Virus record (IMG/VR): IMGVR_UViG_3300025759_009106
Location: 1-30,404 of that record
Direction: 5' to 3' (one strand)
DNA length: 30,404 nt
DNA from: a virus
Shown: in pieces, positions 2,321 through 29,204 of the stretch
How positions within the stretch are numbered: position 1 is the stretch's first letter
Layout of the letters: each line of letters opens with the position of its first letter
Made by a program: the position numbers and the translations under genes
Notes under the pieces: generated by a model
Seen by the model: the letters and a program-made list of their open reading frames with translations, nothing else
Databases searched by the model: none
What the model was told of the DNA's origin: nothing

Positions 2321-2538
2321 AGAGTAAAGTACAGATCTTAAATGAGATGCTACTGGATTCACTTGTTCGGGATCTCAAGGATCCTGACAAGTGTACTCCG
2401 GGGCTGTATACTGTCATCCGTGGCATTATCAATGACAATAGAGAGTCGGCAGATGGCATCCCAAGCCAAGCCCTTGAAGAAGTAACCAAGGCAATGTCCG
2501 AGGCTGCACCCTTCAAGATCAAGGAATCTACATATTGA
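2317..2538 (+). CDS. terS: Terminase small subunit (T7 gp18 / DNA maturase A-like)
   Basis: 73 aa, predicted mostly helical. The signature is an N-terminal helix followed by DLKDPDKCTPGLYTVIRGI and IINDN, a pattern I recognise from T7-like small terminase (maturase A) proteins. Those recognise the packaging site and present concatemeric DNA to the large subunit. There is no obvious SD; the ATG overlaps the preceding stop (ATGA), so translation is probably coupled. The gene ends in TTGA, where TTG begins the large-subunit gene, the usual neighbour. The length is somewhat shorter than T7 gp18. Confidence 0.8.
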   Translation: MKSKVQILNEMLLDSLVRDLKDPDKCTPGLYTVIRGIINDNRESADGIPSQALEEVTKAMSEAAPFKIKESTY

Positions 2539-12642: not shown

Positions 12643-15600
12643 ATGGCAAAAAAACCATGCCCACCAGATATTAAGGAAAAAATTCTTAACGAGTACAGAG
12701 AAACCCTTACTGGTTTAGATCCTCAAGAAATTGAAAACCTAGTTGAAGCAATGTCCTTAAAGTTGGATGGTAAATTTAACTACAATGAGATTGGGGTTGT
12801 AAATAAATTAACTGTAGAAGAACAGAACGAGTTGGCTCAACTAAGAAAAGAATTAATTAGTGGATTGCAAAAAAGAAAGAAGAAGAATGTTGAGTCCATC
12901 TTAGGTGACAAGTATGAGCGGTTTAAAGAACTGCATTATCGAGAGTCTGCTGGAGGAAGAGAACGGGTTGTTTCTGAACAGGAAAAACCAAAGACAAGAA
13001 GATCACAGGTTGCTGCATTGCAAGACCAGATTGAAGTATTGGAATCAGCAGGTGAAACAGAAAAGGCTGAAGGAGTTAGGCGTGTTCTAGAAATTCTAAA
13101 AAGAATTGAGAACAAGAATAACATTGCTGGAAGAAACAATCAAAAAATTAGAGAGATTAAAGAAAGATATGATATCATTGAGTCTGAGATTTCTCAAGTA
13201 AGGGAAGCACTCAACCAAAGCGTTTTTGATGCTACAGGTCAAGAAGAAATTAGTTTGATTGAGGCAAGAGATTCAAAGCAGCAAAGCCTAAGCAATACTG
13301 GAAGAAGAATTGAAAAAGTAAAAGAAGCAATTACAAGAGCAAAGAAGGACGGGAACAAGGAAGCCCTAGCAAAACTAAAGAAAGAAAGAGACCAGTTATC
13401 ATCAAAGGCAAGGAAAGAAGCAAAAGAACTCCTAAAGGCAGAGGAACTGTTAAAGGACTTTAATAAAAGAAAAGAAGCATCTAAAAGAGGCAATACGGCA
13501 AACGCTTATCTTCAAACTTTAGAAATGGAATCATTAAAACTTGCAAGAGAACTTAGCAAGTATGGATCAAGTAATGGTTATATTTTCCACCGTTTAATTG
13601 AAAACGGACCAGCAACCGCAAGAGAAATAAGCAATGCTTTAAAGACCGCTAAAGAAAAGATTGATGCACGAAGAAAAATAATTGATGAGTTGATGGAGCA
13701 TCGCAAATCAGAGGGACTGGATACAATGCTTGTAGTAGACCTTGCTACAATTCTAGGACCAAGATTTGTTCTAAGTCGGGCAGATAACAAGTCAGAACTC
13801 TCTTTTGAAGAGACTGATAAACTGTTTAGGGAATATAGAAAAAGAGCAATGGCACATGCTGCACTGACAAATCAGTTCATTTCCGATACAGAATTTGCTG
13901 ATCGAAGATCTTTAAAAGCATTGGAAGATCTATTCAACAGCATTGACGCATCTACAGTCATTGATGGACACGATCCTCAGCCTCTTGTTGAGGGATCAAC
14001 AATGGAGGAAAGGGTTGAAAGATCAACACCCGGAGTTACATCCGAAAGGTGGAACAAGGAAGTTAATACAGGCAGGCAGTTGTTTAACGTCCTTCGACTG
14101 TTTGCTGGAAGAATCAATACACTAAGATCCCTGCCTAACTTTGGAAAGTATGTAGACATTGACTACATTTGGGCTATTCTATTGGATATACCAGAGTTAA
14201 GAGATCGCCACCCAATGCAAATGTTTCCCGATGCTGCTAGGTATTCGACTGTAAACGAAACAATGGATAAGCCAGAAGATCAGGATATTAAAAGTGCTGC
14301 TAGGGCAGTCCTATCTGAACTAGGAATATCAGATGATATTCTTTTGGGAAGAGAGTTTACTGACTTTGAAGGATGGAAGTATGAGGCTCGCATTGTAAGT
14401 TTTGATATTGAAACCTTTGTTGGCGGAGAAGAGGGCATTCATACCATTGGTCTTACAGTTAATGGTGAACGAAGACTTATGTATGCAGCAGATCAAAGGT
14501 TCTCTCCTGAAGAACTTATGAATGTTCTTCAAGAGATTGAATCTCTTCAAAACAATAACCACATACTAACCACCTTTAATGGAAGTGGATTCGACCTATT
14601 GCAAATGGCTAAGGCCATAGGAACAGAAGAGGCATACAAACTTGCAGCAAGAATAGCATTGCGAAGCGTCGATATAATGCATAATGTTGCATCTTGGGAA
14701 GCATCCAATATGGCTGGAGGAGGCACTGGAAAGAACTTTAGTCTTGCTAATGTTTCCGAAGCAGTAGGGGCTACAATGGCTGGTAAGGTAGAGAGTTACT
14801 GGGCATCCTTGTGGTTCTTGAGATCAAAGGGAATAACGGTAACTGTAGACGATCTTAGTAAAGTTGCTATTAGTGATGCTGAAAAGAAAATCATTGTGGA
14901 CGATGCAAACAACTATACCCCAGAAGAAGCACGGATATCTTTAGAAAACTATATTACCGGGGACATCGACTCCACAGCAATTGTGTTTTCTAATCTAGAA
15001 AAGGTAGCAAGAGGTACAGCAACCTTAAATATTAAGGATAAGCATGGAACATCGTTTATCCTTCCTGCCAACCTAATGCAACCTAACTGGAACATGGACA
15101 CTCGTTATTCATCGTTCTTTGGTGGATTCAGACAAGCAATGTCTGATTGGAAATTCTCTTCAGAAACGGGTAGAAGAATGTTCGACCAATACTCAGCCTT
15201 AGTTCCAGATGGTTCTTACGGTCGAGTGGAGTTTGATCTAGACAAGGTAATGGGTCGCATCGTATCTATGATGACGGCAACCATGGTTCTGGATCCAAAG
15301 TCTAGAATCTTGGGTAGAACAATTGCTTCAATTGCCCAAACAGATATGACTCCAGATGAAAAGATTGCATCTAGTTTTATTGGTTTAATTACAAACCTTC
15401 AAGAATCATCAACCGAAGTAAACAAGAAAATGTTTGCTGATTCAGGAAACAGACTACCACTTAAACTCCAAACATATGCTGAGGGAGGAGACAGACTTCC
15501 TACATTCAACTATGCAGAAGGCACTGTGGAGGAGCAAGAAAACCTTTATATTGCTTCTATGGTTCAAGCAATGAAGGATCAAATCAAACTATCCCGATTA

Positions 15601-18600
15601 ACAGTAGAAGATATATCTAAAAGTATTGGATATGAGGGAGTTGTCACAGATGGAAACGATAACTCCTATGCTGAATTAGCTAAGTTTATAGTTACCAAAT
15701 ACACAAGACATAGAAACTTTAGTCTTGCTGATTTTGGAAATGGTAATTTAGACTTTGCACCAGCACAGAATGTTGGTCGCGGTCTTATTCAGGCTGTTAC
15801 GGATCAACGACAAGGATTTAAAAAGTCTCTCAATAGAGAAAGAACCTTTCAAGAGAATGTCGATGTGGTGGAGAATCCAGAAGAAATTGAAAAATCAATT
15901 GAGAATCCACTAAACGAAACATTCCTTACGAGAATCTTTAGGCACCCAAATCAACATGAAGTTAATAACATTATTCCAATTTCGGTTGCAGACATCCAAA
16001 CTGCAATTTGGGATTTTAAATTAAGAGAAAGAATCAAGCACATTCTTTCGTATGAGTTTAAAACAAACGAAGAAGCACAAGAAGTTATTAAGCAGTATCA
16101 AGACCTTGTTGCCGATGTTGAAGAAGTTCTTGGTGAAACCAAAACAGAGGTTTTAAAACTCCTACCAAATGTGAACAATGCTGTTCTTGGAAACAAGGTT
16201 GATAGCATTGATGAGATTAGAGAAAGAATTGTAGAAGCACTTTTAGATCTACCACAAATGCTATTCCTTTGGCAACACGACTCAGTTACTTCTGGTGAAA
16301 ATGAGAAGATGTTCTGGGACGAAAGCACGCAGAAGACCTATGTAGACGATGCACTAAGTCCGGGATCATTTAATAGCATTGGTTTAATCTCTACCATGGG
16401 TCCGCAGTTTGCATGGTCACTATCTTATTTCCAATCAGACGATCCAGTTAAGCAGAGAGTGTTCTATGAAAAACTTTTCTTAAAGTCCCTTGAAAGAGGA
16501 AGGGCTTTATTTGAAAAGAACAAAGATGTTTATAGCGTCTCTAACTATAGAGACTATAACATGAATGGCGTACACCATGCAGCAGCACTCCACCTTGCAT
16601 ATTCAAAAGATAGGGAATCAAGGATTCTAAACCTTTTGCTTGAACTCAACAATGATAAGATTACTGGAGAGATTCAAGATCGGTACAATAAAATTGGTGA
16701 GTCTATTATAGAAAACCAAGATGCAATTAGAGAGACCCTTTCAAGATTGGGTGATAAAAGAAAACTAGAACAATTCGACGCAATTGTTGATTTTATTAAA
16801 ATGGATAACGCCAATACATTTAGAGAGATAATGAAGGGAGCAGCAATTCCTAGAAACTACCTATCGGGTGTTCAAGGAATTAAGAGAGGGATTAGAGAAA
16901 AAATTAAAGAACTAGATATAGCAGTCCCTTTTGATGTAAACTTCCTTTCTGAAATGTTGGTTAATGAATCAAATGTAATCAATATGTTTCTACTTGATTC
17001 AGCCTTATCAACAATCACTTATCAAGAGCGAATCCAACTTGCAAACAAGATTGCTGCGGAAATGTCTGACGTTTATTCCAATGCAACTTGGTTTAGGGAA
17101 TTAAAAAATATTGCAGCCAAGACAGGGGCAAGTACAGAATCTTGGTTTGCCGGATCTCAGATTAGAGATCTTATTGAAGAAAGAATTCTTTGGGAGTCTA
17201 AGGTAACTGGAAAGTCAGTAGAAGCGGTAAAGGAAAAGTATAAGAGTAGAGTGGAGAAGGCAGAGGAGTATGTAAGAAAGGTGAGAAAAGAGGCAGGAAT
17301 ATCTGGCAAGGTTGATATTAGATCAAGCGAGCATATGAGAAACCTTAACATTATTCTTCTAGGAGATGAGTTTGCCTATAAGAATCTTCCAACTCTCCGT
17401 GCCATTAACGCAATGAATCGCGTTTCATTTAGAATGAACATGGATGCCTTTATGAGACAGGCATCAATGCTTCCATTCCATATTGATCCTGCTGATTCTT
17501 TAGGATTTGAACTATATAACATTTACTTTTCCTTTGGGCACGACACCTTCGGTGAAAGATTCTATCCAACAGGAATGAATGGAGTTATACCAATTAACTC
17601 TTCATTTGCAAGTGTTGTTCGTTACTTAACACAAGGTGGAAAAAACGACAACCCAAATGCCATGTGGGAATTAAAAGACAACATGCTTTACAATATGAGC
17701 AGAGAAGAGGCAATTGCAGAAATTGACAAGATTATGGCAAAGAATATTGCTCTTCAGTTCGCAAGAGAACATATGCCAAAGTTTGGAGATTATGTAGGAG
17801 AGTCACAAGAATCACTAAGTAAGTTCCTTTCAGATTGGAAAGAAAGGTCTTCATTAGAAGATCAAGCGTTCATTCGTGCTGAAAGAGATAGTGTTAGACT
17901 AACAGATAAGGAAAGAGCCGAACTTAAGAAGAATGGTGGGTATGTTGGGATGATCATGCGTGCCATCTTGAATGAAAACAATACAAGAAACTCTACCTTT
18001 GACACTACATATTTACCGGGGGTGGAAAGGTCTGTTAAGGGTTTTGCTGCACTAAGACCAGAGTATGCGTCCATGCGATGGGAAGACCGTGGTATCTTCA
18101 GTCTCATGGAAATACACTATAACCGAAGATTGGAAAATGCAAGACAATACAGAGCATCCATTAAGGATGAGGATCCCAAGTCTGTAAATGACATTCTTCC
18201 ACCAAGTTCCGCTGGGTATGTTAACCCATTTGAAAACTCTCCTACTCCAATGCCACACGTTTATGAAACTCCTTTTGATTTCATTCACGAAATGACCTAT
18301 GGAGATTCAAACTCCAGCGTGGAAAGAAGAGCAACCCATTTAAGAAACAGACTGCAAGAGTTTGCAAGAATCAATGGATTTGATTCTCTCCTGCCAGAAA
18401 CAGGAAGCGGAGACTATGCAAGAATCTACACCATTATGGAGATTCAAAGAAAGGTATTGGATAAGTTTGTCAAGAAGATTATGAAAATCATTGACTCTCC
18501 AAATGCATACGAAGAAATGCTTATGGCAAGAATGGAAATGCTTTCGGATCTTACTGAAAGATTTGAGTTCCATCAGAACGTGTCACAACAAGAAGTCTTG

Positions 18601-21600
18601 ATTCAAGACCTTGGAAACATGATTGGCATTAAGGGATCTGATGTTGCAGGAATGCTTTACATAGATGTGTTTAAGTATTTAAAGAATAGAGGAGTAGATC
18701 CCCTATCTAAGATTAGTCTTGGTCTAAGTCCAATGAATACCCTTAAGACTGATCCTGATACACCCACAGGAAAAGAAAGACCAGCACCAGCAACCATGGC
18801 TCAAAAGATCCAAGGTGTTGAGGCTTTCCAAGTAATTACCAATATTCTATATTCAGAAGTTGGAAGACAGTATGCAACAAAGTTCTTAAAGGAAAAACTA
18901 ACACCAGAAGAATTTGATGCATTGGAAAAAGATAGAAACGGTTTTGTAACCCTGTCATCTATCCCAATGCAGTATCAAAATCACATTGCTCTGTGGCTTT
19001 ATAGCCCACAGGGTGGACTTAACAACTTTGATATCACAAGAGAGATACCTCTATACATCTTCATGGATGAGGTAACTGGTGAAACCTACATCCATACAGA
19101 ATCTGAAGAGTCTATTGCAAGAAGGATTGACTACAGCCCAATGGCTCAACCAGTTAGAATAGCAATGGGTTCTTTCAACATGAATAACAAAACAAACGGA
19201 AAAGCACAATACCACTTGACTCCAGAAGATCTTAGTCAAATGCTTACCGCTCTCCGCAATGTTAGTTTCTTTGAAAGAATTGCCCTTGCTGGTGCAACTA
19301 GAAGTGATATTGGAATGACAGTAACACCAGAAATGAGAATGGTCAGTGCAGAAAAATCTAGATTCTACGAAGCACAAAGAATCATGTATGGAAATGAAAT
19401 GGATCTTCTATCCTTCCTTCATAATGAATCTGGAAATAAACTTGAAACCACCATCTCAACCAAGCGACGAGACGAATTTGGAATGCCTTTAGTTGTATAT
19501 GACGCTACTTATTATACTGGAGGCGAAAAGTATGGAAATGTTCCAGCATTGGTTGAAGCATATGCTGGTTATGTAAACCAAGCCATTATGATGGCAAGAA
19601 AGTATGGATTAGAAGAAGAAGCAGAAAACCTTGTCAACTTTATCAAGGACAATGTTAAAAATAAGGATGGAGATTTCAATCTCATCCCCGCTATGATTAT
19701 CGTGGCTTCGGCTTATGACAAACCAATTAGCCACCAACTAAAACTATTAACTGGTTATTTTGGAGCCGGTGTATCTGACGAGTATATCAGAAGCCTACAT
19801 ACCAAGGTTTCAAAGATAGCCTCTACTTATCTAATGGTAACTAGCAGAACAGAACCAAGAAACCCATTCTTCCATCAAGCAAAAAGAATGGTTGAGATTC
19901 TTGGAACAGTCAATGTAATGAATACAAATCTTTCTGAAAACTTCATTGGATATGACGGATCTCCAGAACATGATTCATTGATTCGCAAAGCAGTTGAACG
20001 AGCCAATCAACTATACATGTTTGATCGAGGAAGACGATCATCCCCCGGAGAGGCATCCTCAAATGCATCAGAGTCTTTGTTTGTAAATCCTGAGTATCAA
20101 ACTCTATTGGACCCAAATAGCAGAAACACCATTAACAACGCTATTGTTGAAATGGTTGAAAACAATGTTATCTCAGAAGAAACAGCGGGAATGTTCAGAT
20201 CAATGATTGCAATCATTGCCGATAAGAATGATGCGTTCTTGGATGGGCTTTCAATTCAACTGGATCCCAATCTTGAAACTGAAGGCGAAAGCCAAAGATA
20301 TGATAACAGGTTTGTAATAAAACTAAATCCACGACTCCTTAAGGAACGAGCGGTTCCTGAAATAATTGAAGTGTTTGCACACGAAATAACACACATTGCA
20401 AGACTGAAGTATATCAAAACAGGAGGAGATTCTTGGAGAAAGTTGACTGCATTCTTTAGGGATCCATCAGCCCAAGAAACAATGCACTCCATGGTTTCTG
20501 CAATGTATTCTGGTGACAAGTTTGAAATTAACTCCTTAATTCAACACTTCAAATCAAACCCAGAAGAGTTCTTGGCAGAGTGGGGAGCATTTGTTCTTAT
20601 TGCAGAAGCAACAAAAGAGTCCAATAGAAAGTTAAGGGACAAGTATACCAAGGCTTCTGAGTCAAGCATGGCTGCACAAGAAGCAACTTCTTGGTGGAAG
20701 AGAGCCTTTGCTAGAGTTAAGAAACTTGCACAAACAATAACAATTGGAATGAATGAATTTAGATCCAAGCATCCAAAGATAATGAAACTCATGGATGATG
20801 TTGTTGAGGAGATGTTCAACTTCGATGGGTCTTTTGATAGATCACGACCACATGTGGTTGCTGAATCTGGATCCTTCCAATACCCAAGAAGATTCTTTGA
20901 AAAGGGAACAGGAATACTGGATGTCAACAAGTTGATGTCTCTTTACTATGACTTCCAAGTTAGGGATGAACTTGGAAGACTAAGTATTCAATTAGACCCA
21001 ACAAAACAAAAGATACTGGATGATGTAGAAAAACGCCTCGCAGCCGTTGAGGGAAGAAGAAACTTGCTAGGACAAGATATTCAAGAGTATAGCCAAGCAA
21101 TCTCTGAAATGTATGACATTATGAATGAAAACCCAGAGAATAGAAGGCTTTCCCCTCAGAATAGATCTCAAAGAATTGCTCTTGCTAATCTTGTTTTAGA
21201 GAAAGTAGCAGAACAAAGAGGTGAAAGAGTTGGGGGATCGGAGGCAGAAGATGCCATTAGGACCGTTGGAGACAAGGCGTCGGAACTATTTAAGCATGCT
21301 CTTGATGTCCTATACAATGGAACTTCAAGAACCCCCGGTAAGAAGGGATTGTGGGGAACATCTGGTATTGGTGGAGGAAACGATTCAGGATTAACCTACG
21401 CATCATCTGAAACCATCCTTGCTGCTTTAGGATATTTATTAGACTCGTCCAAGGGATCGGCTCAAAACGTCTTTACAACCCAAAACCAAGGTATAATTAG
21501 CAGGTGGTCTGCAATAAGACAGGAAATCAACACTGCATCTCTCATGGTCCACTCAATTAAGGGAAGATGGGGCAAGGATAGCAACAAAGTATTGTTTGGT

Positions 21601-24600
21601 GCCATTGAGTATCTCCAACTTAATCGTTCAGACCAAGCAATTAAGAGATCAAAGACAAACCTAACAGATGAAATGTGGGAACATGCCAAGGAACTGGCTA
21701 ACCAATACGCTGCTGTAATTGATTTATGGATGAGCGGAGCCAAAGAAACAGGTATTCTATCAAAAGATTCCTTGGCACCCAACGATAGAATGGCTTTCAT
21801 GTTAAGAAGCAAGGCTTTGGAAAGAGCAGGACAGGATTCAACAACACAATTTGTTTCTGCTTTGCAAAAAGCCTATGAACATAGGATTCAAAATCAACTC
21901 CACCCAACAGGATCCATTGATTCGTTTGGTTTTTACCTATCAAACCTCTTTCCTCAGTTTGGATACGAGAAGGAGTTCTTCATTCAACACTTTGAAAACA
22001 GAAAGAGAGTCCAAAATGGAGAACAAATTGAGGATTTCGATGCTCAGGTTGCCGTAGTCAATACAATACTAAAGATGGCACGAAGAAAGTTCATCAAAAA
22101 CGTAAGAAGAAGAGACAGAACAGTAACTGAAAAAGATGCTGGAGCCAGATTTGACAGAAACATTACCGATATTCTAGAATGGAGAGTTGTGGGAGAGAGC
22201 ATTGAGTTTGCAACAAAGCAACTCATGCGTCAGATCCACTCTGGAACAACATACAACGTCTTATTTAGTGATGAAAGTGCTAGGATCATGGACATAATCA
22301 GTGCCATAAGCCGATCAAACAGCAGAAAACTTAATTCGGCAAAGGCAGATGACATCATTGATAGAAAGTTTTATAATGATTTATTCAACACAAAGGTAAG
22401 ATTCAAACCAAATCCACTCTGGATGAAGGATAGTCGAAGACCAAAAACAATTTCCGACCTGCATACAACCATGTTGTTGAAGGAGATGGGCAACAATGCG
22501 TACCTTCCCAACGCAAATGCCTTCCATCTTTCATTCACTGACATGATGAATACCCCAACCTTGACTGAATCCGAAAAGGCAATTCTTTCTAGTGGGTTTG
22601 AACAAGACCTATCTCAAGTAATTCTTGGGGTATCCAAGACACTTGGAAGAAAATACATTGGAAGGTTGTCTGTAATGGACATTACAGGTGTAACAGGAAT
22701 TGAGTTTTCCGATGTAATCGACGCCATAAAGGAATCCAAGAATGGAGATGAGGCATGGACAAATGCTTTAGATGCGATCCAAAGAAAACATGATCTTGCC
22801 ATTGGAGCAGCAGCAGTATTCGATGATACCGCAGATAATGGAATGTGGGGCTTGATAGCAAGAGCAGGCAAGGCATCTACGGATGTCATATGGGGAGGAA
22901 ACCAAGGTGCTGCCACTCTTATATTTGAGGGGTTTCTTGGTTCCGTAACTGACATTATGTATGGACAAAATCCCCTCTTGTTGTGGAAAGATGTACTTTC
23001 AAACATTGCCAACCTCTTTGTAGGAGTCTATGGGGGAAGAGGATACCTCAATAATCAAAACTTCAATGCTGATCTTGGTGCTTTGTTTGACATGGAAAAC
23101 ATAATGTCTGAAGTCATGGATCCATCTTTTACAAATTATGCCACTGTTGATTCCGATGAGACAGGAAAATTAGCAAGATTTCAAAATTGGTGGTGGAGAA
23201 AACTAAGACAAGGACATAGAGTAGCACCTGTTGCAGTAAGAAATTCCTTAAAACTTCAAGGACAAAGACTTATTTTCCAACGACTAAGCCTTCTTGACAA
23301 GTATCGAAAGGCTTTGGAAAACTATAAGGGACCGCATAATCTTAAGAAGTTTAAGAAAATATTGAGAGAAGTTGGATCAGTAAGGAATCTTGATCTATGG
23401 GGCACCGAAAGTTCTGTTCTATTGAAGATGTCAGAGGCAGGGGTGTTCAAATCAGAACGCACAATCACAGCAATAAAGTTCTTGTTTGACAACTTCAGAA
23501 AGAAAAACGGGCTTATAGATTATGTGGAACTTCAAAAGCAGTTGGCTTTCATCATCAAAGAAAGAGGTGTTGATGGCATTGTAGCCCCAAACATAACCGT
23601 AAAAGACCTGAAAGACGCTATGGTGGTTGTCAACAAGTTCCAAGAAAAGTATGCAGAAGATACAATGGTCGTAAGCCACCCAATGGATAGACCAACCGGA
23701 TCTCACCCAGCATCGTTCTTGTTCAACTTGTATCGTTCATTCCCAAAACTTTTCATGGCACAGCATGTTTTAGACAAGTATCAAAGATTAACAAATCGCC
23801 AATTTGTAACCCACCTTCTATCCGCATTTGCCTTGGATATTATTTACAATGTTGCATTGATGTATGCTTCTGGAGCAATAGATGATGATATGTTGGAAAG
23901 GATTCGGAAGGGAGACGTAACTACAAGAGATGTGCAGATGATTGTTGCTATCGTCTTAAGAAACCCAATTATAAGCAATCGCATGCTTACCAACATTGCT
24001 GTTCAGGGAACAAACCTCCTTGCTTTCCAGATGCTTGGAAACCGTCCGGGAATGCCATCTTTTCCACAACTTGGAATGCTTTTGCTTCCACCATCTGCTA
24101 TTGCAGCCATAAGTGCAATATATAAATCAGGAAAACCAGTAGCAGATGCAATTAAGGGTGACTTCGATACTGCATCATTTGTAAATCACTTCAGTAAACT
24201 GGTTCCGGGAGTTGGTCTCTTAACCAGAACAGCCTTAAACGAACTTATTGAAGAAGAAAAGAAGTCAACAACAAGAGGAGGCAGAAGCGCATCTGCCACA
24301 AGCACATTCATTAGCAACATGGATAGCCAAGACTACTCTGATAAACAACTTCTTAAAGATGTATTGAAGGAGTTTTTTCCAAATGCATTAGACAATATCC
24401 CCCCAACAAGAGGGATGGCTTTGCCAGTAGAGGTTATGAGCAACCTAGATCGCTTCAGAGAGGCTACAAAACCCAAGGCTCCCCAGACACCCCCAGCCAC
24501 ACAAAGCCCAGCACAGGCGGCTCCCGTGGCTCCTACGCAAGCTCCAGCACCATCTGGTCCTAGAGCCACAAATCCCGCAACCCCACCCCCAGAATTAGGA

Positions 24601-24609
24601 GGACCGTAA
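12643..24609 (+). CDS. Giant 3988-aa virion/ejection protein with exonuclease and zincin motifs
   Basis: One uninterrupted 11,967-bp frame, SD AAGGAG at 12629-12634. Residues about 30-270 are a charged coiled-coil-like region. A complete DEDDy exonuclease signature follows: Exo I SFDIET (D588, E590), Exo II TFNGSGFD (N646, D651) and Exo III YITGD (Y770, D774). Near residue 2580 there is HEITH with EEFLAEW (E2646) about 62 residues on, a gluzincin-type metallopeptidase pattern. Near the C-terminus RSFPKLFMAQHVLDKY and hydrophobic segments (about 3722-3745 and 3790-3835) recall gp16-type membrane-active ends. The last 45 residues are Pro/Ala-rich. Only one cysteine (C6) is present. Size and multi-domain make-up fit phage polyvalent/ejection proteins. 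Position suggests the T7 gp16 role, three times longer. I found no RNA-polymerase motifs. Confidence 0.85.
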   Translation: MAKKPCPPDIKEKILNEYRETLTGLDPQEIENLVEAMSLKLDGKFNYNEIGVVNKLTVEEQNELAQLRKELISGLQKRKKKNVESILGDKYERFKELHYRESAGGRERVVSEQEKPKTRRSQVAALQDQIEVLESAGETEKAEGVRRVLEILKRIENKNNIAGRNNQKIREIKERYDIIESEISQVREALNQSVFDATGQEEISLIEARDSKQQSLSNTGRRIEKVKEAITRAKKDGNKEALAKLKKERDQLSSKARKEAKELLKAEELLKDFNKRKEASKRGNTANAYLQTLEMESLKLARELSKYGSSNGYIFHRLIENGPATAREISNALKTAKEKIDARRKIIDELMEHRKSEGLDTMLVVDLATILGPRFVLSRADNKSELSFEETDKLFREYRKRAMAHAALTNQFISDTEFADRRSLKALEDLFNSIDASTVIDGHDPQPLVEGSTMEERVERSTPGVTSERWNKEVNTGRQLFNVLRLFAGRINTLRSLPNFGKYVDIDYIWAILLDIPELRDRHPMQMFPDAARYSTVNETMDKPEDQDIKSAARAVLSELGISDDILLGREFTDFEGWKYEARIVSFDIETFVGGEEGIHTIGLTVNGERRLMYAADQRFSPEELMNVLQEIESLQNNNHILTTFNGSGFDLLQMAKAIGTEEAYKLAARIALRSVDIMHNVASWEASNMAGGGTGKNFSLANVSEAVGATMAGKVESYWASLWFLRSKGITVTVDDLSKVAISDAEKKIIVDDANNYTPEEARISLENYITGDIDSTAIVFSNLEKVARGTATLNIKDKHGTSFILPANLMQPNWNMDTRYSSFFGGFRQAMSDWKFSSETGRRMFDQYSALVPDGSYGRVEFDLDKVMGRIVSMMTATMVLDPKSRILGRTIASIAQTDMTPDEKIASSFIGLITNLQESSTEVNKKMFADSGNRLPLKLQTYAEGGDRLPTFNYAEGTVEEQENLYIASMVQAMKDQIKLSRLTVEDISKSIGYEGVVTDGNDNSYAELAKFIVTKYTRHRNFSLADFGNGNLDFAPAQNVGRGLIQAVTDQRQGFKKSLNRERTFQENVDVVENPEEIEKSIENPLNETFLTRIFRHPNQHEVNNIIPISVADIQTAIWDFKLRERIKHILSYEFKTNEEAQEVIKQYQDLVADVEEVLGETKTEVLKLLPNVNNAVLGNKVDSIDEIRERIVEALLDLPQMLFLWQHDSVTSGENEKMFWDESTQKTYVDDALSPGSFNSIGLISTMGPQFAWSLSYFQSDDPVKQRVFYEKLFLKSLERGRALFEKNKDVYSVSNYRDYNMNGVHHAAALHLAYSKDRESRILNLLLELNNDKITGEIQDRYNKIGESIIENQDAIRETLSRLGDKRKLEQFDAIVDFIKMDNANTFREIMKGAAIPRNYLSGVQGIKRGIREKIKELDIAVPFDVNFLSEMLVNESNVINMFLLDSALSTITYQERIQLANKIAAEMSDVYSNATWFRELKNIAAKTGASTESWFAGSQIRDLIEERILWESKVTGKSVEAVKEKYKSRVEKAEEYVRKVRKEAGISGKVDIRSSEHMRNLNIILLGDEFAYKNLPTLRAINAMNRVSFRMNMDAFMRQASMLPFHIDPADSLGFELYNIYFSFGHDTFGERFYPTGMNGVIPINSSFASVVRYLTQGGKNDNPNAMWELKDNMLYNMSREEAIAEIDKIMAKNIALQFAREHMPKFGDYVGESQESLSKFLSDWKERSSLEDQAFIRAERDSVRLTDKERAELKKNGGYVGMIMRAILNENNTRNSTFDTTYLPGVERSVKGFAALRPEYASMRWEDRGIFSLMEIHYNRRLENARQYRASIKDEDPKSVNDILPPSSAGYVNPFENSPTPMPHVYETPFDFIHEMTYGDSNSSVERRATHLRNRLQEFARINGFDSLLPETGSGDYARIYTIMEIQRKVLDKFVKKIMKIIDSPNAYEEMLMARMEMLSDLTERFEFHQNVSQQEVLIQDLGNMIGIKGSDVAGMLYIDVFKYLKNRGVDPLSKISLGLSPMNTLKTDPDTPTGKERPAPATMAQKIQGVEAFQVITNILYSEVGRQYATKFLKEKLTPEEFDALEKDRNGFVTLSSIPMQYQNHIALWLYSPQGGLNNFDITREIPLYIFMDEVTGETYIHTESEESIARRIDYSPMAQPVRIAMGSFNMNNKTNGKAQYHLTPEDLSQMLTALRNVSFFERIALAGATRSDIGMTVTPEMRMVSAEKSRFYEAQRIMYGNEMDLLSFLHNESGNKLETTISTKRRDEFGMPLVVYDATYYTGGEKYGNVPALVEAYAGYVNQAIMMARKYGLEEEAENLVNFIKDNVKNKDGDFNLIPAMIIVASAYDKPISHQLKLLTGYFGAGVSDEYIRSLHTKVSKIASTYLMVTSRTEPRNPFFHQAKRMVEILGTVNVMNTNLSENFIGYDGSPEHDSLIRKAVERANQLYMFDRGRRSSPGEASSNASESLFVNPEYQTLLDPNSRNTINNAIVEMVENNVISEETAGMFRSMIAIIADKNDAFLDGLSIQLDPNLETEGESQRYDNRFVIKLNPRLLKERAVPEIIEVFAHEITHIARLKYIKTGGDSWRKLTAFFRDPSAQETMHSMVSAMYSGDKFEINSLIQHFKSNPEEFLAEWGAFVLIAEATKESNRKLRDKYTKASESSMAAQEATSWWKRAFARVKKLAQTITIGMNEFRSKHPKIMKLMDDVVEEMFNFDGSFDRSRPHVVAESGSFQYPRRFFEKGTGILDVNKLMSLYYDFQVRDELGRLSIQLDPTKQKILDDVEKRLAAVEGRRNLLGQDIQEYSQAISEMYDIMNENPENRRLSPQNRSQRIALANLVLEKVAEQRGERVGGSEAEDAIRTVGDKASELFKHALDVLYNGTSRTPGKKGLWGTSGIGGGNDSGLTYASSETILAALGYLLDSSKGSAQNVFTTQNQGIISRWSAIRQEINTASLMVHSIKGRWGKDSNKVLFGAIEYLQLNRSDQAIKRSKTNLTDEMWEHAKELANQYAAVIDLWMSGAKETGILSKDSLAPNDRMAFMLRSKALERAGQDSTTQFVSALQKAYEHRIQNQLHPTGSIDSFGFYLSNLFPQFGYEKEFFIQHFENRKRVQNGEQIEDFDAQVAVVNTILKMARRKFIKNVRRRDRTVTEKDAGARFDRNITDILEWRVVGESIEFATKQLMRQIHSGTTYNVLFSDESARIMDIISAISRSNSRKLNSAKADDIIDRKFYNDLFNTKVRFKPNPLWMKDSRRPKTISDLHTTMLLKEMGNNAYLPNANAFHLSFTDMMNTPTLTESEKAILSSGFEQDLSQVILGVSKTLGRKYIGRLSVMDITGVTGIEFSDVIDAIKESKNGDEAWTNALDAIQRKHDLAIGAAAVFDDTADNGMWGLIARAGKASTDVIWGGNQGAATLIFEGFLGSVTDIMYGQNPLLLWKDVLSNIANLFVGVYGGRGYLNNQNFNADLGALFDMENIMSEVMDPSFTNYATVDSDETGKLARFQNWWWRKLRQGHRVAPVAVRNSLKLQGQRLIFQRLSLLDKYRKALENYKGPHNLKKFKKILREVGSVRNLDLWGTESSVLLKMSEAGVFKSERTITAIKFLFDNFRKKNGLIDYVELQKQLAFIIKERGVDGIVAPNITVKDLKDAMVVVNKFQEKYAEDTMVVSHPMDRPTGSHPASFLFNLYRSFPKLFMAQHVLDKYQRLTNRQFVTHLLSAFALDIIYNVALMYASGAIDDDMLERIRKGDVTTRDVQMIVAIVLRNPIISNRMLTNIAVQGTNLLAFQMLGNRPGMPSFPQLGMLLLPPSAIAAISAIYKSGKPVADAIKGDFDTASFVNHFSKLVPGVGLLTRTALNELIEEEKKSTTRGGRSASATSTFISNMDSQDYSDKQLLKDVLKEFFPNALDNIPPTRGMALPVEVMSNLDRFREATKPKAPQTPPATQSPAQAAPVAPTQAPAPSGPRATNPATPPPELGGP

Positions 24610-25243: not shown

Positions 25244-25343
25244 CTAAAAAGAAAATCGACTAGGGGGTCAGGAATTTACGGAGGGGTAGTAATATATTGG
25301 GAGGTAGCGTTACCCCCCTTACCCCCCTTAGGAAAGGAATAGC
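25244..25343 (+). other. Non-coding junction between virion block and early-type block
   Basis: This 100-bp stretch lies between the last small virion-block gene and the first early-type gene. It holds an A-rich start, AATTTACGGAGGGG, an AT-rich ATATATT, an imperfect hairpin around GGTAGCGTTACC, and two copies of TTACCCCCC in tandem (25308-25325). No convincing intrinsic terminator or sigma-type promoter is visible. It marks the point where base composition and gene type change, so a genome end or early promoter could lie here; this is inference. Confidence 0.4.
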
Positions 25344-25442
25344 ATGGAAAAGTGCATTAACATCATCACGTGGGTATTGTTGTACATGTTGGCTGCTATG
25401 CTAACAACCACCCTTATTATCTTGTGGATGGTGACAGTGTGA
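25344..25442 (+). CDS. 32-aa single-TM peptide
   Basis: ATG at 25344 has AAAGGA at 25333-25338 (5 nt spacing). The product is hydrophobic throughout its middle (ITWVLLYMLAAMLTTTLIIL) with a short charged start (MEKCIN), so a single membrane helix is expected. It ends GTGACAGTGTGA, a string that also ends the next gene (CDS 25529-25783), immediately before identical hairpins. The first gene of the early-type block in T7-like phages is often a small host-interacting factor. Membrane-located exclusion or host takeover would fit, but nothing specific can be read from the sequence. Confidence 0.6.
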   Translation: MEKCINIITWVLLYMLAAMLTTTLIILWMVTV

Positions 25443-25446
25443 CCTC

Positions 25447-25515
25447 GGCTCCCCCAGCAATGGGGGAGCCATGGCTGTACTGTTACAGCAAAGGCAAGCC
25501 CAGCCTACAGTGGGC
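25447..25515 (+). promoter_or_regulatory. Leader element 1: three hairpins plus pseudoknot, before CDS 25529
   Basis: Hairpin 1 is 25447-25470 (10-bp stem GGCTCCCCCA with GCAA tetraloop). Hairpin 2 is 25474-25489 (GCTGTA/TACAGC, loop CTGT). Hairpin 3 is 25492-25506 (AGGC/GCCT, 7-nt loop AAGCCCA). The loop GCCCA (25498-25502) can pair with TGGGC (25511-25515), one base before the SD AAAGGAG (25516-25522). Hairpin 3 and the loop differ in sequence from the other three copies, yet pairing is kept. The SP6-like promoter core is degraded in this copy. Confidence 0.65.
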
Positions 25516-25528
25516 AAAGGAGTCAGCA

Positions 25529-25783
25529 ATGACTACGAAGTTTGAAGATGTGTACCTTGGCGTGTCCCCCGGAGAATACGGTATTCGGATTGTTTATTCA
25601 AGGAACTACGCAGACAAGCGTCCGTCCTCACTGGTTGTGCGAGACGGACGGGATACGCTGGTGGTGGTTAAGGAAGTTCCCCTGACTTCTGGAAAGTCCA
25701 TGATCACCATTGCGTTGGATGCGTACGACGAAATGAGTAGTAATCGTCGCCTCATCGCCAAGATGCACGCAGAGACAGTGTGA
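25529..25783 (+). CDS. Small early-type protein, 84 aa, unknown
   Basis: The start at 25529 is set by AAAGGAG at 25516-25522. The frame stays open further upstream, but only by running through the leader hairpins. The product begins MTTKFEDVYLGVSPGEYGIR and has alternating strand-like segments (IRIVYS, SSLVVRDGRDTLVVVKEVPL, SMITIALDAYDE) with an acidic/basic helical end. It therefore looks like a small beta-rich domain. I do not recognise a family. It sits between two leader elements and its last codons, GACAGTGTGA, are shared with the 32-aa gene, showing that the duplicated segment begins inside the coding end. Confidence 0.7.
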   Translation: MTTKFEDVYLGVSPGEYGIRIVYSRNYADKRPSSLVVRDGRDTLVVVKEVPLTSGKSMITIALDAYDEMSSNRRLIAKMHAETV

Positions 25784-25787
25784 CCTC

Positions 25788-25875
25788 GGCTCCCCCAGCA
25801 ATGGGGGAGCCATGGCTGTACTGTTACAGCACATGCTATGCATATGCCCGATGCATAGCATGACACTACAGGGCA
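25788..25875 (+). promoter_or_regulatory. Leader element 2: three hairpins plus pseudoknot, before CDS 25890
   Basis: Hairpin 1 (25788-25811) is identical to copy 1, with a GCAA loop. Hairpin 2 (25815-25830) is GCTGTA/TACAGC with loop CTGT. Hairpin 3 (25832-25862) is a perfect 12-bp stem CATGCTATGCAT/ATGCATAGCATG with loop ATGCCCG. Loop bases TGCCC (25845-25849) are complementary to GGGCA (25871-25875), just upstream of the SD AAGGA (25878-25882). The 3' arm overlaps the SP6-like promoter. Confidence 0.7.
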
Positions 25876-25876
25876 A
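25854..25876 (+). promoter_or_regulatory. SP6-like phage promoter core P1
   Basis: The sequence TGACACTACA followed by GGGCAA matches the SP6 promoter core TGACACTATA from -10 to -1 in nine of ten positions. Transcription would start at G25871. The -17 to -11 region, CATAGCA, lies in the 3' arm of hairpin 3 of the leader. The predicted transcript would start 19 nt before the GTG start codon, so its untranslated leader would be just an SD. The same core recurs twice downstream. Confidence 0.6.
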
Positions 25877-25889
25877 CAAGGATCCAGCA

Positions 25890-26201
25890 GTGATCACGAT
25901 CTACCAACTCAGGCGTCTGGGCAAAAGCAATCCAATGTTCCCAGAGGACTATCGCAAGGTGTTCCATGTAAACACCCACAGCCCGAGGATTGCGTGGGAG
26001 GCAACGCAACCCGAACTCGACGCCCACACCGTCAGCATCATCGACTGGGATCACGCCCGCTCAACGGGCGTCGGGGACATTATGGTCCTCGACCGCTGCG
26101 TAGTTCTACTGGTTGAAAAGGCAGGCTTTTCATACCAGTTCGACCTCAGGGATAAGGACATGGCCTCCAACAGCAAGGAGATCCAATTCCTCAAGGGCTA
26201 A
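25890..26201 (+). CDS. Small early-type protein, 103 aa, unknown (GTG start)
   Basis: The start is GTG at 25890, with AAGGA (25878-25882) 7 nt upstream. The longer in-frame reading from 25812 would translate hairpins 2 and 3 of the leader, so I reject it. The product reads (M)ITIYQLRRLGKSNPMFPED, then VFHVNTHSPRIAWEATQPE and SIIDWDHARSTGVGDIMVLD, and ends with CVVLLVEKAGFSYQFDLRDK and a charged tail. It looks like a small alpha/beta domain. The TGVGDIMVLD...F motif, with small hydrophobic strands, recalls YodL-like or host-interacting small domains in mobile elements, but I cannot assign it. G+C-rich third codon positions match the RNA polymerase gene. Confidence 0.7.
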   Translation: MITIYQLRRLGKSNPMFPEDYRKVFHVNTHSPRIAWEATQPELDAHTVSIIDWDHARSTGVGDIMVLDRCVVLLVEKAGFSYQFDLRDKDMASNSKEIQFLKG

Positions 26202-26216
26202 CACAGTCCTACCCTC

Positions 26217-26306
26217 GGCTCCCCCAGCAATGGGGGAGCCTTTGGGCTGTACTGTTACAGCACATGCTATGCACATGCCCGATGCATGGCATGACACTAC
26301 AGGGCA
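26217..26306 (+). promoter_or_regulatory. Leader element 3: three hairpins plus pseudoknot, before CDS 26319
   Basis: Hairpin 1 (26217-26240) is identical to copies 1 and 2. Hairpin 2 (26246-26261) is GCTGTA/TACAGC with loop CTGT. Hairpin 3 (26263-26293) is CATGCTATGCAC/ATGCATGGCATG, with one G-U pair replacing A-U and an opened loop-closing pair. The loop TGCCC (26276-26280) can pair with GGGCA (26302-26306), next to the SD GGAG (26309-26312). The spacer between hairpins 1 and 2 differs from copies 1 and 2 (TTTGG instead of ATG). Confidence 0.7.
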
Positions 26307-26307
26307 A
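26285..26307 (+). promoter_or_regulatory. SP6-like phage promoter core P2
   Basis: TGACACTACA then GGGCAA; the predicted start is G26302, 17 nt before the ATG at 26319. It is identical to P1 from -12 to +6; the upstream part differs by one base (CATGGCA instead of CATAGCA). It overlaps the 3' arm of the leader's third hairpin. Confidence 0.6.
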
Positions 26308-26318
26308 TGGAGTTAGTA

Positions 26319-26516
26319 ATGGACCCAATGGTATGGATCCATAAATGGGAGAGGTATCTCCTGAACTGGAACATCACACATGATGTCTTTCCAAATCTGG
26401 AAAGCATCTGGGGTCGGCGTCCGAGTTATGTGGACGACGACCTGAGGCGTGAGGCGTTCCAGAAATGGGAAGCCGCCGTTACCAGACGCTCCAAGAATTA
26501 TTGGGGCGTAAAGTAA
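26319..26516 (+). CDS. Small early-type protein, 65 aa, unknown
   Basis: ATG at 26319 is preferred to the in-frame ATG at 26307 because GGAG (26309-26312) lies 6 nt upstream of the former and overlaps the latter. The product starts MDPMVWIHKWERYLLNWNIT and ends RSKNYWGVK. It is rich in Trp (six), Arg and acidic residues and is predicted mostly helical. A small, charged, Trp-rich protein just before the phage RNA polymerase could be a host-takeover or polymerase-modulating factor. This is inference from context; no family was recognised. Confidence 0.65.
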   Translation: MDPMVWIHKWERYLLNWNITHDVFPNLESIWGRRPSYVDDDLRREAFQKWEAAVTRRSKNYWGVK

Positions 26517-26529
26517 CAGTTCTACCCTT

Positions 26530-26612
26530 GCCTCCCTACGGGGAGGCTTGGGCTGCACTGTTGCAGCACATGTTATGCACATGCCCGATGCATAGCATGA
26601 CACCATAGGGCA
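26530..26612 (+). promoter_or_regulatory. Leader element 4: three hairpins plus pseudoknot, before RNA polymerase
   Basis: Hairpin 1 (26530-26547) has a different sequence from the other copies, GCCTCCC/GGGAGGC closed by a TACG (UNCG-type) tetraloop, but the same fold. Hairpin 2 (26552-26567) is GCTGCA/TGCAGC: the T-A pair of the other copies is C-G here, a compensatory change. Hairpin 3 (26569-26599) is CATGTTATGCAC/ATGCATAGCATG with one G-U pair and an opened loop-closing pair. Loop TGCCC (26582-26586) is complementary to GGGCA (26608-26612), beside the SD TGGAG (26614-26618). Confidence 0.7.
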
Positions 26613-26613: not shown

Positions 26614-26625
26614 TGGAGTACCGAC

Positions 26626-28353
26626 ATGTTTCAACATGTCAAGGTAACGTGTGAGCCACTGGCGAGTTTCTTCTCGTCGGTCGCTAGGTCGCTCCGTACC
26701 ATCAATCACAAGGTGGTGCGGGAGGTGATCCAGTCTGGGATTGGATCTGGGAAGATCCGTCTCGCAATGCAGGATGGGGTGTGGCATGCTGCCAACATGG
26801 AAGCACCTGTCAAGGGTGCAACTGTGTCCCGTCTTGCTAGGACTCCTGTGGAGGCGTGGCATTTGGTGCCATCGCTTGACGATAAGCCCTCGGGCTTCGT
26901 TGAGGCGGTGGACTACTTGTCAAGCATTCAGTTTCGGATGAATGGTCAGATCATGGACCTTTATCTGGAGACGCACCGTGACAAGGACATCATGTCTTCG
27001 TTGCTTGCGAAGGAGTTCCACAACTTCGGGGCTGGTCCGTACTATCTCCCCGGATTCTGGGATCATCGCGGTCGGTTGTATGCCAAGGGTGGTGTTGCAA
27101 ACTACCAAGGCAGTCAACTGCACCGTGCGATCTGCGACTTCGCAGACTCGTTTGAGTGCAACGAGGATGCCCTTCTTCTGCTGGTTGACAAGATCCAGCG
27201 GGAGTGGAAGATCGGAGAGTCCGACATCCGGTCTGCCATCAAGGATCCCTCGGGGTTTGTGACGCATGCCAAGGTCAAGAAGCCTTGGCTGTGTCTCCGA
27301 TACTGCCTTGCCGTCCATGAGATCGAGCGTACCGGCAAGACCAGTCTGATTCTTCAATTGGATCAGACTGCCTCTGGCCCCGGCATCATGGCGTACATTA
27401 CGGGTGATGTCCGGTTGGCTAGGTACACAAACATGCTCATGTCTCGGGATGGGACTCAACAGGATGTGTACAAGGCGGCTTCGGATCGGGTGTTGCATGG
27501 CAACCTGCTGGGCGACATTGCCTATTTGGGCGATGGAGTCTTCCTCACCCGAACTTGCTCCAAGGCGATTAGCGTTCCAACCTATTATGGTGCGAACGCA
27601 GCGTCATCTGCGAGGGGTCTCATTCTCGATGACCCGCAGGACAACCCTGTGGTCTACTTGGACGAGGATGGGATCTTGATCGAGGGGGTTCTTGAAGACC
27701 TCTCCGAAGACAAGTTCAACCCTACCTTCCTTCCCGTGTGGAAGGAGTTGGGCTGGAAGCAGTCCGTGTTGGTTGCCTCTCATGTGTCAGAGTCGTACCA
27801 CGAGGCAATCTTTGGGTCTGAGCGCATTTCCGGCGTCAGCACCCGAATGCGGACCTTCATGATCGCAGCCAAGCGTGCCGCAAGGTGGGCACAGGATCGG
27901 GGAATCCCTCTCATGTGGGAGACCCCGGATGGGTTCTTGGCGAACAATGCCAAGGTCGGTGAGGACAGGTCCGCCAAGACTGTCGAGGAGAACTTCTACG
28001 TTCTTGTTGATGGTGTCAAGAAGCGGATCAAGGTTTCTGTCATGCCCCTCTGTTGGGAGGGAACTGTGGCAGGTTTCCCGCCAAACGGTGTCCACTCGGG
28101 CGATGGTTTTATCAACCGTCGCGTGCTGCTGTCTGGCAAGAAGTTTGGGATTCCAGTGGCTCCGGTCCATGATTCGTGGGGATTCCCTGTTCCCTACGCA
28201 CACATGGCAATCGGGTTCGCTCAGAATGCGTTCTTGGACTTGCCGCCAGAGTGGTTCAACAACATCCTGACTCAGTACGGTCAGGATCCCATCTTTGTTG
28301 ATGGTGGGGTGGACCGCAGCGAGTTCCTGAAGGCAAAGTACTTCCTGTCCTAA
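26626..28353 (+). CDS. Compact T7-family single-subunit RNA polymerase
   Basis: 575 aa; ATG at 26626 with SD TGGAG (26614-26618). Catalytic landmarks of the T7 family are all present. DHRGRLY (residues 146-152) matches the DWRGRVY region. Motif A is LDQTASGPGI with catalytic D246. Motif B is R309, K313, Y321 and G322 (RTCSKAISVPTYYG), aligned to T7 R627/K631/Y639/G640. A PPNGVHSGDG segment (485-494) precedes motif C, HDSWG, with catalytic D516 (T7 D812). The end, KAKYFLS, resembles the T7 carboxyl end. From DHRGR to the C-terminus the length is close to T7, but only about 145 residues precede it versus about 420 in T7. Most of the N-terminal domain is therefore missing or replaced. It should transcribe phage genes from the SP6-like promoters nearby. 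Confidence 0.93.
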   Translation: MFQHVKVTCEPLASFFSSVARSLRTINHKVVREVIQSGIGSGKIRLAMQDGVWHAANMEAPVKGATVSRLARTPVEAWHLVPSLDDKPSGFVEAVDYLSSIQFRMNGQIMDLYLETHRDKDIMSSLLAKEFHNFGAGPYYLPGFWDHRGRLYAKGGVANYQGSQLHRAICDFADSFECNEDALLLLVDKIQREWKIGESDIRSAIKDPSGFVTHAKVKKPWLCLRYCLAVHEIERTGKTSLILQLDQTASGPGIMAYITGDVRLARYTNMLMSRDGTQQDVYKAASDRVLHGNLLGDIAYLGDGVFLTRTCSKAISVPTYYGANAASSARGLILDDPQDNPVVYLDEDGILIEGVLEDLSEDKFNPTFLPVWKELGWKQSVLVASHVSESYHEAIFGSERISGVSTRMRTFMIAAKRAARWAQDRGIPLMWETPDGFLANNAKVGEDRSAKTVEENFYVLVDGVKKRIKVSVMPLCWEGTVAGFPPNGVHSGDGFINRRVLLSGKKFGIPVAPVHDSWGFPVPYAHMAIGFAQNAFLDLPPEWFNNILTQYGQDPIFVDGGVDRSEFLKAKYFLS

Positions 28354-28354
28354 C

Positions 28355-28380
28355 TCACCCATTGTGGGTGATCTTTCTTT
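28355..28380 (+). terminator. Intrinsic terminator after RNA polymerase
   Basis: A 7-bp stem TCACCCA/TGGGTGA with loop TTG is followed by TCTTTCTTT. It begins two bases after the polymerase stop codon. The stem is short and the U-tract is interrupted by C, so termination may be partial. Confidence 0.65.
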
Positions 28381-28384
28381 CAAG

Positions 28385-28398
28385 GTGGCGTTAGCCAC
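28385..28398 (+). promoter_or_regulatory. Small hairpin before the SD of CDS 28411
   Basis: GTGGC/GCCAC with loop GTTA, directly followed by the SD AAGGAG (28399-28404). It could hold the ribosome site open or protect the 5' end of a processed RNA; no repeat of it is seen elsewhere. Confidence 0.4.
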
Positions 28399-28410
28399 AA
28401 GGAGTTTGGA

Positions 28411-28899: not shown

Positions 28900-28949
28900 T
28901 GGCTGGTGTGAGGGGGGATGGGACATGACAAGACATGTGGATGGCTACC

Positions 28950-29117
28950 TAGGCTACCCTATCTACGCTACTCTACGCTACAATACGATACTACGCTACT
29001 CTAGGCTACTCTAGGGGGCTACAATACGCTACGATACACTACCCTAGGTAGATACCCTACGCTACCTAGGATGCGTTTATAGGGCATCCTAGGCCGTTAT
29101 ACGGCAATATACGCTAC
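28950..29117 (+). repeat. Array of degenerate TACGCTAC 8-mers
   Basis: TACGCTAC starts at 28964, 28974, 28992, 29025, 29058 and 29110. The variants TAGGCTAC (28950, 29002) and TACGATAC (28984, 29030) fill the gaps. In the densest part the starts are 8-10 bp apart, near one helical turn. The array lies between the post-polymerase gene and CDS 29348. This could be an iteron-type protein-binding region, possibly an origin: T7's primary origin is just downstream of its polymerase gene. That role is inferred. Confidence 0.65.
29065..29104 (+). other. Hairpin pair in the repeat region
   Basis: A perfect 10-bp stem CCTAGGATGC/GCATCCTAGG (29065-29074, 29084-29093) with a 9-nt loop is directly followed by CCGT-TAT-ACGG (29094-29104). 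It contains the CCTAGG hexamer that also forms the stems of the hairpins at 29618 and 29825. Confidence 0.5.
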
Positions 29118-29204
29118 TACCCTACGGTAAATCTACAATAAGGTGGGTAACTAGGGGGGTATTCGTGAGGGTATCTGCTTTTTTCTACTCTCGCCACGCA
29201 CCGC

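Follow-up and report, generated by a model that had tools for sequence, protein, structure and literature searches.

Structured leaders precede three small ORFs and an RNA polymerase gene

A repeated RNA leader lies directly 5' of three small ORFs and a gene for a single-subunit (T7-type) RNA polymerase in an IMG/VR virus record of 30,404 bases, the whole of which was analysed and is called the window here. In its 5' domain, a long imperfect hairpin competes with a shorter one, termed hairpin 2, and in its 3' domain the loop of hairpin 3 can form a pseudoknot with a stretch next to the SD. Tentatively, and with confidence that stays somewhat below one half, we propose that the leader is an intercistronic element for mRNA processing and stabilisation of the kind known from the T7 early genes, with an added pseudoknot.

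Towards the right of the window, small basic ORFs are followed by ORFs L, M, N and O and then by the RNA polymerase gene, which matches PHROG 414 (E 2.3e-28) and Pfam PF00940 (E 3.1e-9). No PHROGs or Pfam match below E 0.05 was found for ORFs M, N and O, the best being one PHROGs match at 0.059. Of the four genes that the initial annotation called early-type, the RNA polymerase gene is the only one that can be identified; early expression is inferred from gene position. Further to the left, a giant ORF of 3988 aa (12643-24609) has RNase H-like and SprT-like matches and no match to a polymerase domain. The genes and the parts of the four leaders are as follows.

2535-4199: large terminase gene
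25529..25783, + strand: ORF M, 84 aa, without assigned function
25890..26201, + strand: ORF N, 103 aa, GTG start, without assigned function
26319..26516, + strand: ORF O, 65 aa, without assigned function
26626..28353, + strand: single-subunit (T7-type) RNA polymerase gene, 575 aa, target of leader 4
25431..25486, + strand: copy 1, long imperfect hairpin GTGACAGTGTGACC-TC-H1-AT-GGCTGTACTGTTAC, an inverted repeat; MFE fold, lower-stem probability 0.93
25434-25438 and 25447-25470, + strand: copy 1, ACAGT and hairpin 1
25474..25489, + strand: copy 1, hairpin 2, GCTGT-ACTGTT-ACAGC, which competes with the long hairpin's lower stem
25492..25515, + strand: copy 1, hairpin 3, AGGC-AAGCCCA-GCCT, plus pseudoknot
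25498-25502 with 25511-25515, + strand: copy 1, pseudoknot GCCCA with TGGGC; SD AGGAG at 25518-25522
25772..25827, + strand: copy 2, long hairpin, about 60:40 long hairpin versus hairpin 2
25775-25779, 25788-25811 and 25815-25830, + strand: copy 2, ACAGT, hairpin 1 and alternative hairpin 2
25832..25875, + strand: copy 2, hairpin 3 (12 bp, 25832-25862) plus pseudoknot
25845-25849 with 25871-25875, + strand: copy 2, pseudoknot TGCCC with GGGCA; SD AAGGA at 25878-25882
26203..26255, + strand: copy 3, long hairpin, MFE of the 5' domain; hairpin 2 favoured in the full leader
26203-26207, 26217-26240 and 26246-26261, + strand: copy 3, ACAGT (with CCC/GGG), hairpin 1 and alternative hairpin 2
26263..26306, + strand: copy 3, hairpin 3 (26263-26293) plus pseudoknot
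26276-26280 with 26302-26306, + strand: copy 3, pseudoknot TGCCC with GGGCA; SD GGAG at 26309-26312
26513..26564, + strand: copy 4, long hairpin, lower-stem probability 0.998
26516-26520, 26530-26547 and 26552-26567, + strand: copy 4, ACAGT, hairpin 1 (GCCTCCC-TACG-GGGAGGC) and alternative hairpin 2
26569..26612, + strand: copy 4, hairpin 3 (26569-26599) plus pseudoknot
26582-26586 with 26608-26612, + strand: copy 4, pseudoknot TGCCC with GGGCA; SD GGAG at 26615-26618

All window leaders fold better than shuffled sequences of equal dinucleotide content (z -3.3 to -5.3; among 200 shuffles, 0-2 did equally well). The parts named in the initial annotation are present in all four, namely hairpin 1, hairpin 2 with its CTGT loop and a hairpin 3 whose loop is complementary to a stretch close to the SD, with a gap to the SD core of 1-2 nt in the window. 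We also recovered the deviating hairpin 3 stem of copy 1 (a short AGGC/GCCT of 4 bp) and, in copy 4, both the swapped hairpin 1 and the T-A to C-G change in hairpin 2. The bounds of 25447-26612 given there had to be widened: the element starts near 25431 and ends with the SD of the RNA polymerase gene (26618).

The surroundings of the cluster hold further elements. A AAAATCGACTA(TA)GGGG motif at 25256-25267, upstream of the leaders, occurs a single time and at the same place in the window and in three relatives (L053, L054 and L056), and is a candidate promoter for the phage polymerase. At 28354-28410, 3' of the polymerase gene, a second and different structured leader precedes the next gene, as it does in L054 and L053; in these relatives it starts with the stems CCTAACC-AATGT-GGTTAGG and CCCAGCC-AACGT-GGCTGGG, which show compensatory differences, and continues with a pyrimidine stretch and a hairpin that directly abuts the SD. 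Many CTACGCTAC/CTACTCTAC-like repeats lie in the intergenic region at 28930-29140.

Related phages share the leader

For comparison we used nine distinct leaders, four from the window and five from two related phages (three IMG/VR records) that were reached via a terminase search. G004 (IMGVR 3300017788_000024) has four leaders, located before three small ORFs and the polymerase gene, and the near-identical records G003 and G005 (3300005611_000067 and 3300001419_000001) have one, before the polymerase gene. The polymerase of G004 is 35% identical to that of the window and 63% identical to that of G005, which sets the three phages well apart. A comparison of the small ORFs downstream of the leaders revealed no detectable relationship between those of the window and those of G004 (best E 0.29); judged from these sequences, the leaders are conserved between the two phages and the genes behind them are not. 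This occurrence before genes without detectable kinship, together with covariation in the relatives for the pseudoknot, hairpin 2, hairpin 1 and the hairpin 3 stem, strengthens the earlier suggestion of selection on RNA structure. Just 5' of its single leader, relative L054 has a 10-codon frame (MLLCWWVATV), which resembles a remnant of ORF L in the window.

L056 (record G006), whose terminase is 75% identical, is a relative at greater distance in which the leader model found no match by sequence. Its corresponding gene interval contains two copies of AATCTCAA-C-upper stem-TA-TTGGGATT, unrelated in sequence to the leaders and equal in layout: the lower stem is formed by AATCTCAA/TTGGGATT, the two upper stems show compensatory differences, and the 3' arm is able to refold locally with downstream sequence. 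The balance is unequal between the two copies; in copy 1 the outer stem, with a probability of 0.175, is not the preferred structure. Beside a polymerase ORF of 657 aa, this record has a second, larger one of 816 aa at 65810-66907.

Searches further afield returned no additional carriers. Pattern scans for hairpin 2 gave no match outside the two related phages that had a surrounding leader on reading, and the scan for the long hairpin 3 found the known relative only. RNA polymerase searches of viral contigs and cellular-species genomes yielded no further carrier of the leader; at 80 loci of an 86-aa neighbour gene, motif and covariance model detected it in none but the known relatives. Annotated phages gave no DNA match to the leaders, and three named relatives of the polymerase have no similar leader.

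The long hairpin and hairpin 2 are mutually exclusive

A conserved ACAGT (once TCAGT, once ATAGT) starts 13-14 nt 5' of hairpin 1 and pairs with the ACTGT of hairpin 2. This strand was missing from the three-hairpin model of the initial annotation; the hairpins of that model exist, but hairpins 1 and 2 are not independent units: mostly they are parts of one long imperfect hairpin, in which the ACAGT strand pairs with the loop and 3' arm of hairpin 2. The long hairpin consists of the ACAGT/ACTGT lower stem, a CC(C)/GG(G) segment and a tetraloop-capped stem of about 10 bp, and hairpin 2 is a mutually exclusive alternative to its lower stem. The segment reads CC/GG in six leaders and CCC/GGG in three and is never mixed.

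Folding predicts the long hairpin as the MFE of the 5' domain in seven of the nine leaders. The preference amounts to 23 kcal/mol in the polymerase leader of G004 and is near balance in copy 2 and in G005, and in copy 3 hairpin 2 dominates within the full leader; altogether, the balance between the two folds ranges from 0 to 99.5% among the copies. The lower stem pairs at 8-11 of 12 positions in eight leaders and at 6 of 12 in copy 3. It beats random phage 12-mers in 8/9 leaders (p 0.00005 to 0.027), with p 0.31 for copy 3.

In a sliding control on an alignment of eight leaders, 92% of the cells pair in the long hairpin versus 38-53% when slid; for hairpin 2 the values are 100% versus 38-60%, with pairing in 8/8 leaders and one double-sided stem change. 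Permuting the 5' flanks among the leaders gave a mean of 81.7 pairs versus 83 for the real ones. The permuted flanks pair almost equally because the core is invariant, and support for the lower stem therefore comes from a few variable pairs. Three covarying bases of G004, named x, Y and R, read A/T/A in leaders a and c and G/C/G in b and d, where Y is the partner of x in the long hairpin and that of R in hairpin 2. Across nine related leaders, the compensatory changes in both exclusive folds are supportive of these structures and not conclusive. Without the 5' arm, the 3' arm is predicted to fold as hairpin 2 (-6 to -10 kcal/mol), which is weakly better than shuffles (z -1.4 to -2.5). Pairing of ACAGT with the hairpin 2 loop as a further pseudoknot was rejected: a single nucleotide would have to span the stem, and the exclusive long hairpin explains the pairing better.

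A pseudoknot ends directly before the SD

In all nine leaders the pseudoknot helix ends 1-3 nt before the SD. Three types can be distinguished: type A, with the AGGC/GCCT stem and GCCCA/TGGGC (window copy 1 and the first G004 leader), type B, with a long stem of about 12 bp and TGCCC/GGGCA (window copies 2-4 and the second and third G004 leaders), and type C, with TGACCC/GGGTCA (the polymerase leaders of G004 and G005). Compared with random tails, a helix this long ending at most 3 nt from the SD has p 0.0012-0.0092; the Fisher combination of one member of each of the three types gives 1.2e-5.

The initial annotation held that loop and target had changed together within the window. The GCCC/GGGC core is, however, constant and in register in all four copies; at its flanks, one end is extended by an A-T pair in copy 1 and the opposite end by a T-A pair in copies 2-4, and type B loops pair with the copy 1 target as well as with their own. 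True double-sided change comes only from the relatives (TGACCC/GGGTCA), where both partners are exchanged at two pseudoknot positions, G-C to A-T and T-A to G-C. The type B stems show the series C-G to T-G to T-A and T-A to T-G to C-G.

Comparison with known RNA elements

No Rfam family, ribozymes and riboswitches included, matches the leaders at or above the gathering score. Of the "possibly new regulatory RNA family" suggested initially, an undescribed family is thus a fair description, while the regulatory part is conjectural, as SD accessibility barely depends on the fold. The unpaired fraction of the SD is almost equal with the long hairpin and with hairpin 2, which speaks against a simple SD-masking switch; an SD-sequestering riboswitch, which needs the SD paired in one of two states, was rejected on this ground. 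We also discarded a self-cleaving ribozyme (nothing similar in Rfam, and almost no unpaired bases that are conserved), an N4-type hairpin promoter for a virion polymerase (no polymerase domain match in the giant ORF), a frameshift signal (the pseudoknots sit 3' of stop codons) and an intrinsic terminator, that is, a G+C hairpin with a T run (no plus-strand site listed at the leaders).

Five T7 early RNase III sites (R0.3, R0.5, R1, R1.1 and R1.3) were folded at what we take to be their positions. There, each folds into a hairpin whose stem next to the loop measures about 9-12 bp, in most cases together with an internal loop and a lower stem; for four of the five, the distance to the following early gene or gene 1 is about 27-35 nt. 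The leaders likewise are intercistronic, upstream of an RNA polymerase gene and, judging by position, presumably early. A few tens of nt ahead of the next start codon they form an imperfect hairpin, in which an upper stem of about 10 bp and a lower stem are joined by internal mismatches or loops. Like the T7 sites, this hairpin comprises about two double-stranded turns and an internal loop, a feature that is weaker in copy 3. Unlike the T7 sites, to which we saw no sequence similarity, the leaders have a 3' arm that can refold into its own hairpin and a pseudoknot that touches the SD; we know of no pseudoknot before the SD at T7 RNase III sites. In its arrangement, the leader resembles these sites at least as well as a regulatory switch, and its novelty would be the SD-abutting pseudoknot added to a T7-like intercistronic processing hairpin.

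An H-type pseudoknot with its 3' strand at the SD is found in the SAM-II and preQ1 riboswitches. The leaders share the H-type pseudoknot near the SD and differ in that the SD lies outside the pseudoknot strand, loop and stem sequences vary across types and Rfam gives no match. Another H-type pseudoknot in a phage mRNA leader, also kept across relatives, is that of gene 32 in T4, T2 and RB69 (PMC535899, PMC3014915). In T4, about 67 nt lie between the pseudoknot and the start codon downstream of it, and they include an A+U-rich stretch without structure (PMC535899, PMC3014915); according to a 2010 review, the gene 32 pseudoknot of the T4 type may be the sole viral case in translation autoregulation (PMC3014915). 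In contrast, the pseudoknot described here ends 1-3 nt before the SD, follows a long hairpin and recurs before several genes; with this distance, and as the protein-binding A+U-rich unstructured repeats between pseudoknot and start are absent, we rejected a gene 32-type operator.

Possible functions of the leader

In the proposed processing pathway, host RNase III or a similar double-strand nuclease would cut the long hairpin and separate the cistrons. With the 5' arm lost, the 3' arm would refold as hairpin 2, so that the new mRNA would begin with hairpin 2, followed by the pseudoknot and an open SD. Hairpin 2 and the pseudoknot would protect the 5' end, and the ribosome site would stay open independently of the upstream cistron. 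Refolding after cleavage would explain why two incompatible folds were kept by evolution. Cleavage and the involvement of RNase III are, like early expression, what we infer. Precedents are the stabilisation of mRNA by 5' hairpins or ribosome sites (PMC3997798) and the 10 RNase III sites of T7, which shape transcript levels (PMC9135205). The similar layout in L056 and an SD openness that barely differs between the folds fit this pathway. The weak lower stem of copy 3 and the near 50:50 folding of copy 2 and the G005 leader are points against processing, as are the permuted flanks, the small advantage of the refolding hairpin over shuffles and the disfavoured outer stem in copy 1 of L056.

As the main alternative, the two folds could be regulated states of one translational operator that jointly controls the early genes, with the state set by some ligand, among them phage proteins such as the RNA polymerase or one of the early proteins. 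Two exclusive folds that each have compensatory changes, a base Y in G004 that changes along with both alternative partners (A/T/A versus G/C/G), the four leaders in each of two phages before different genes and the RNA polymerase, and the pseudoknot operator of T4 gene 32 as a precedent (PMC3014915) are in line with this reading. It is nevertheless rather unlikely: the SD is about equally accessible in either fold, conserved unpaired bases are scarce apart from the pairable hairpin 2 loop and leave no obvious ligand pocket, and a fold balance of 0 to 99.5% between copies would be odd if it were tuned. That a bistable element, in which one strand pairs alternately upstream and downstream, coordinates the early cluster and the RNA polymerase via a phage-encoded factor seems distinctly unlikely; to our knowledge, such a post-transcriptional regulon has not been described for T7-like phages.

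Without any cleavage, the leader might act as a constitutive insulator of translation, with the structure after the stop codon blocking ribosome readthrough and the pseudoknot freeing the SD or setting initiation strength. The pseudoknot abuts the SD in 9/9 leaders, as does a plain hairpin at the gene after the polymerase, and the SD region is not consistently sequestered. We consider this unlikely, as it leaves the conserved ACAGT/ACTGT long hairpin and the maintained alternative fold unexplained. Least probable by far is a role at the DNA level, in which a phage protein or polymerase would bind the palindromes or use them as promoters. Although the 5' domain is near-palindromic, with a model finding it on the minus strand too, and is repeated upstream of genes, many of the maintained pairs are G-T, which pair only in plus-strand RNA, the loop pairs with an SD-proximal stretch at a fixed distance from the SD, and a separate promoter-like motif lies upstream of the cluster.

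If the processing reading is true, these uncultured aquatic phages, distant relatives of T7, would split their early transcripts into stable single-gene mRNAs as T7 does, using a self-refolding leader that loses one arm to the cut and caps the new 5' end with the other. The repeated family of SD-abutting pseudoknots would then provide new natural material on the relation between 5' structure, mRNA life and initiation.
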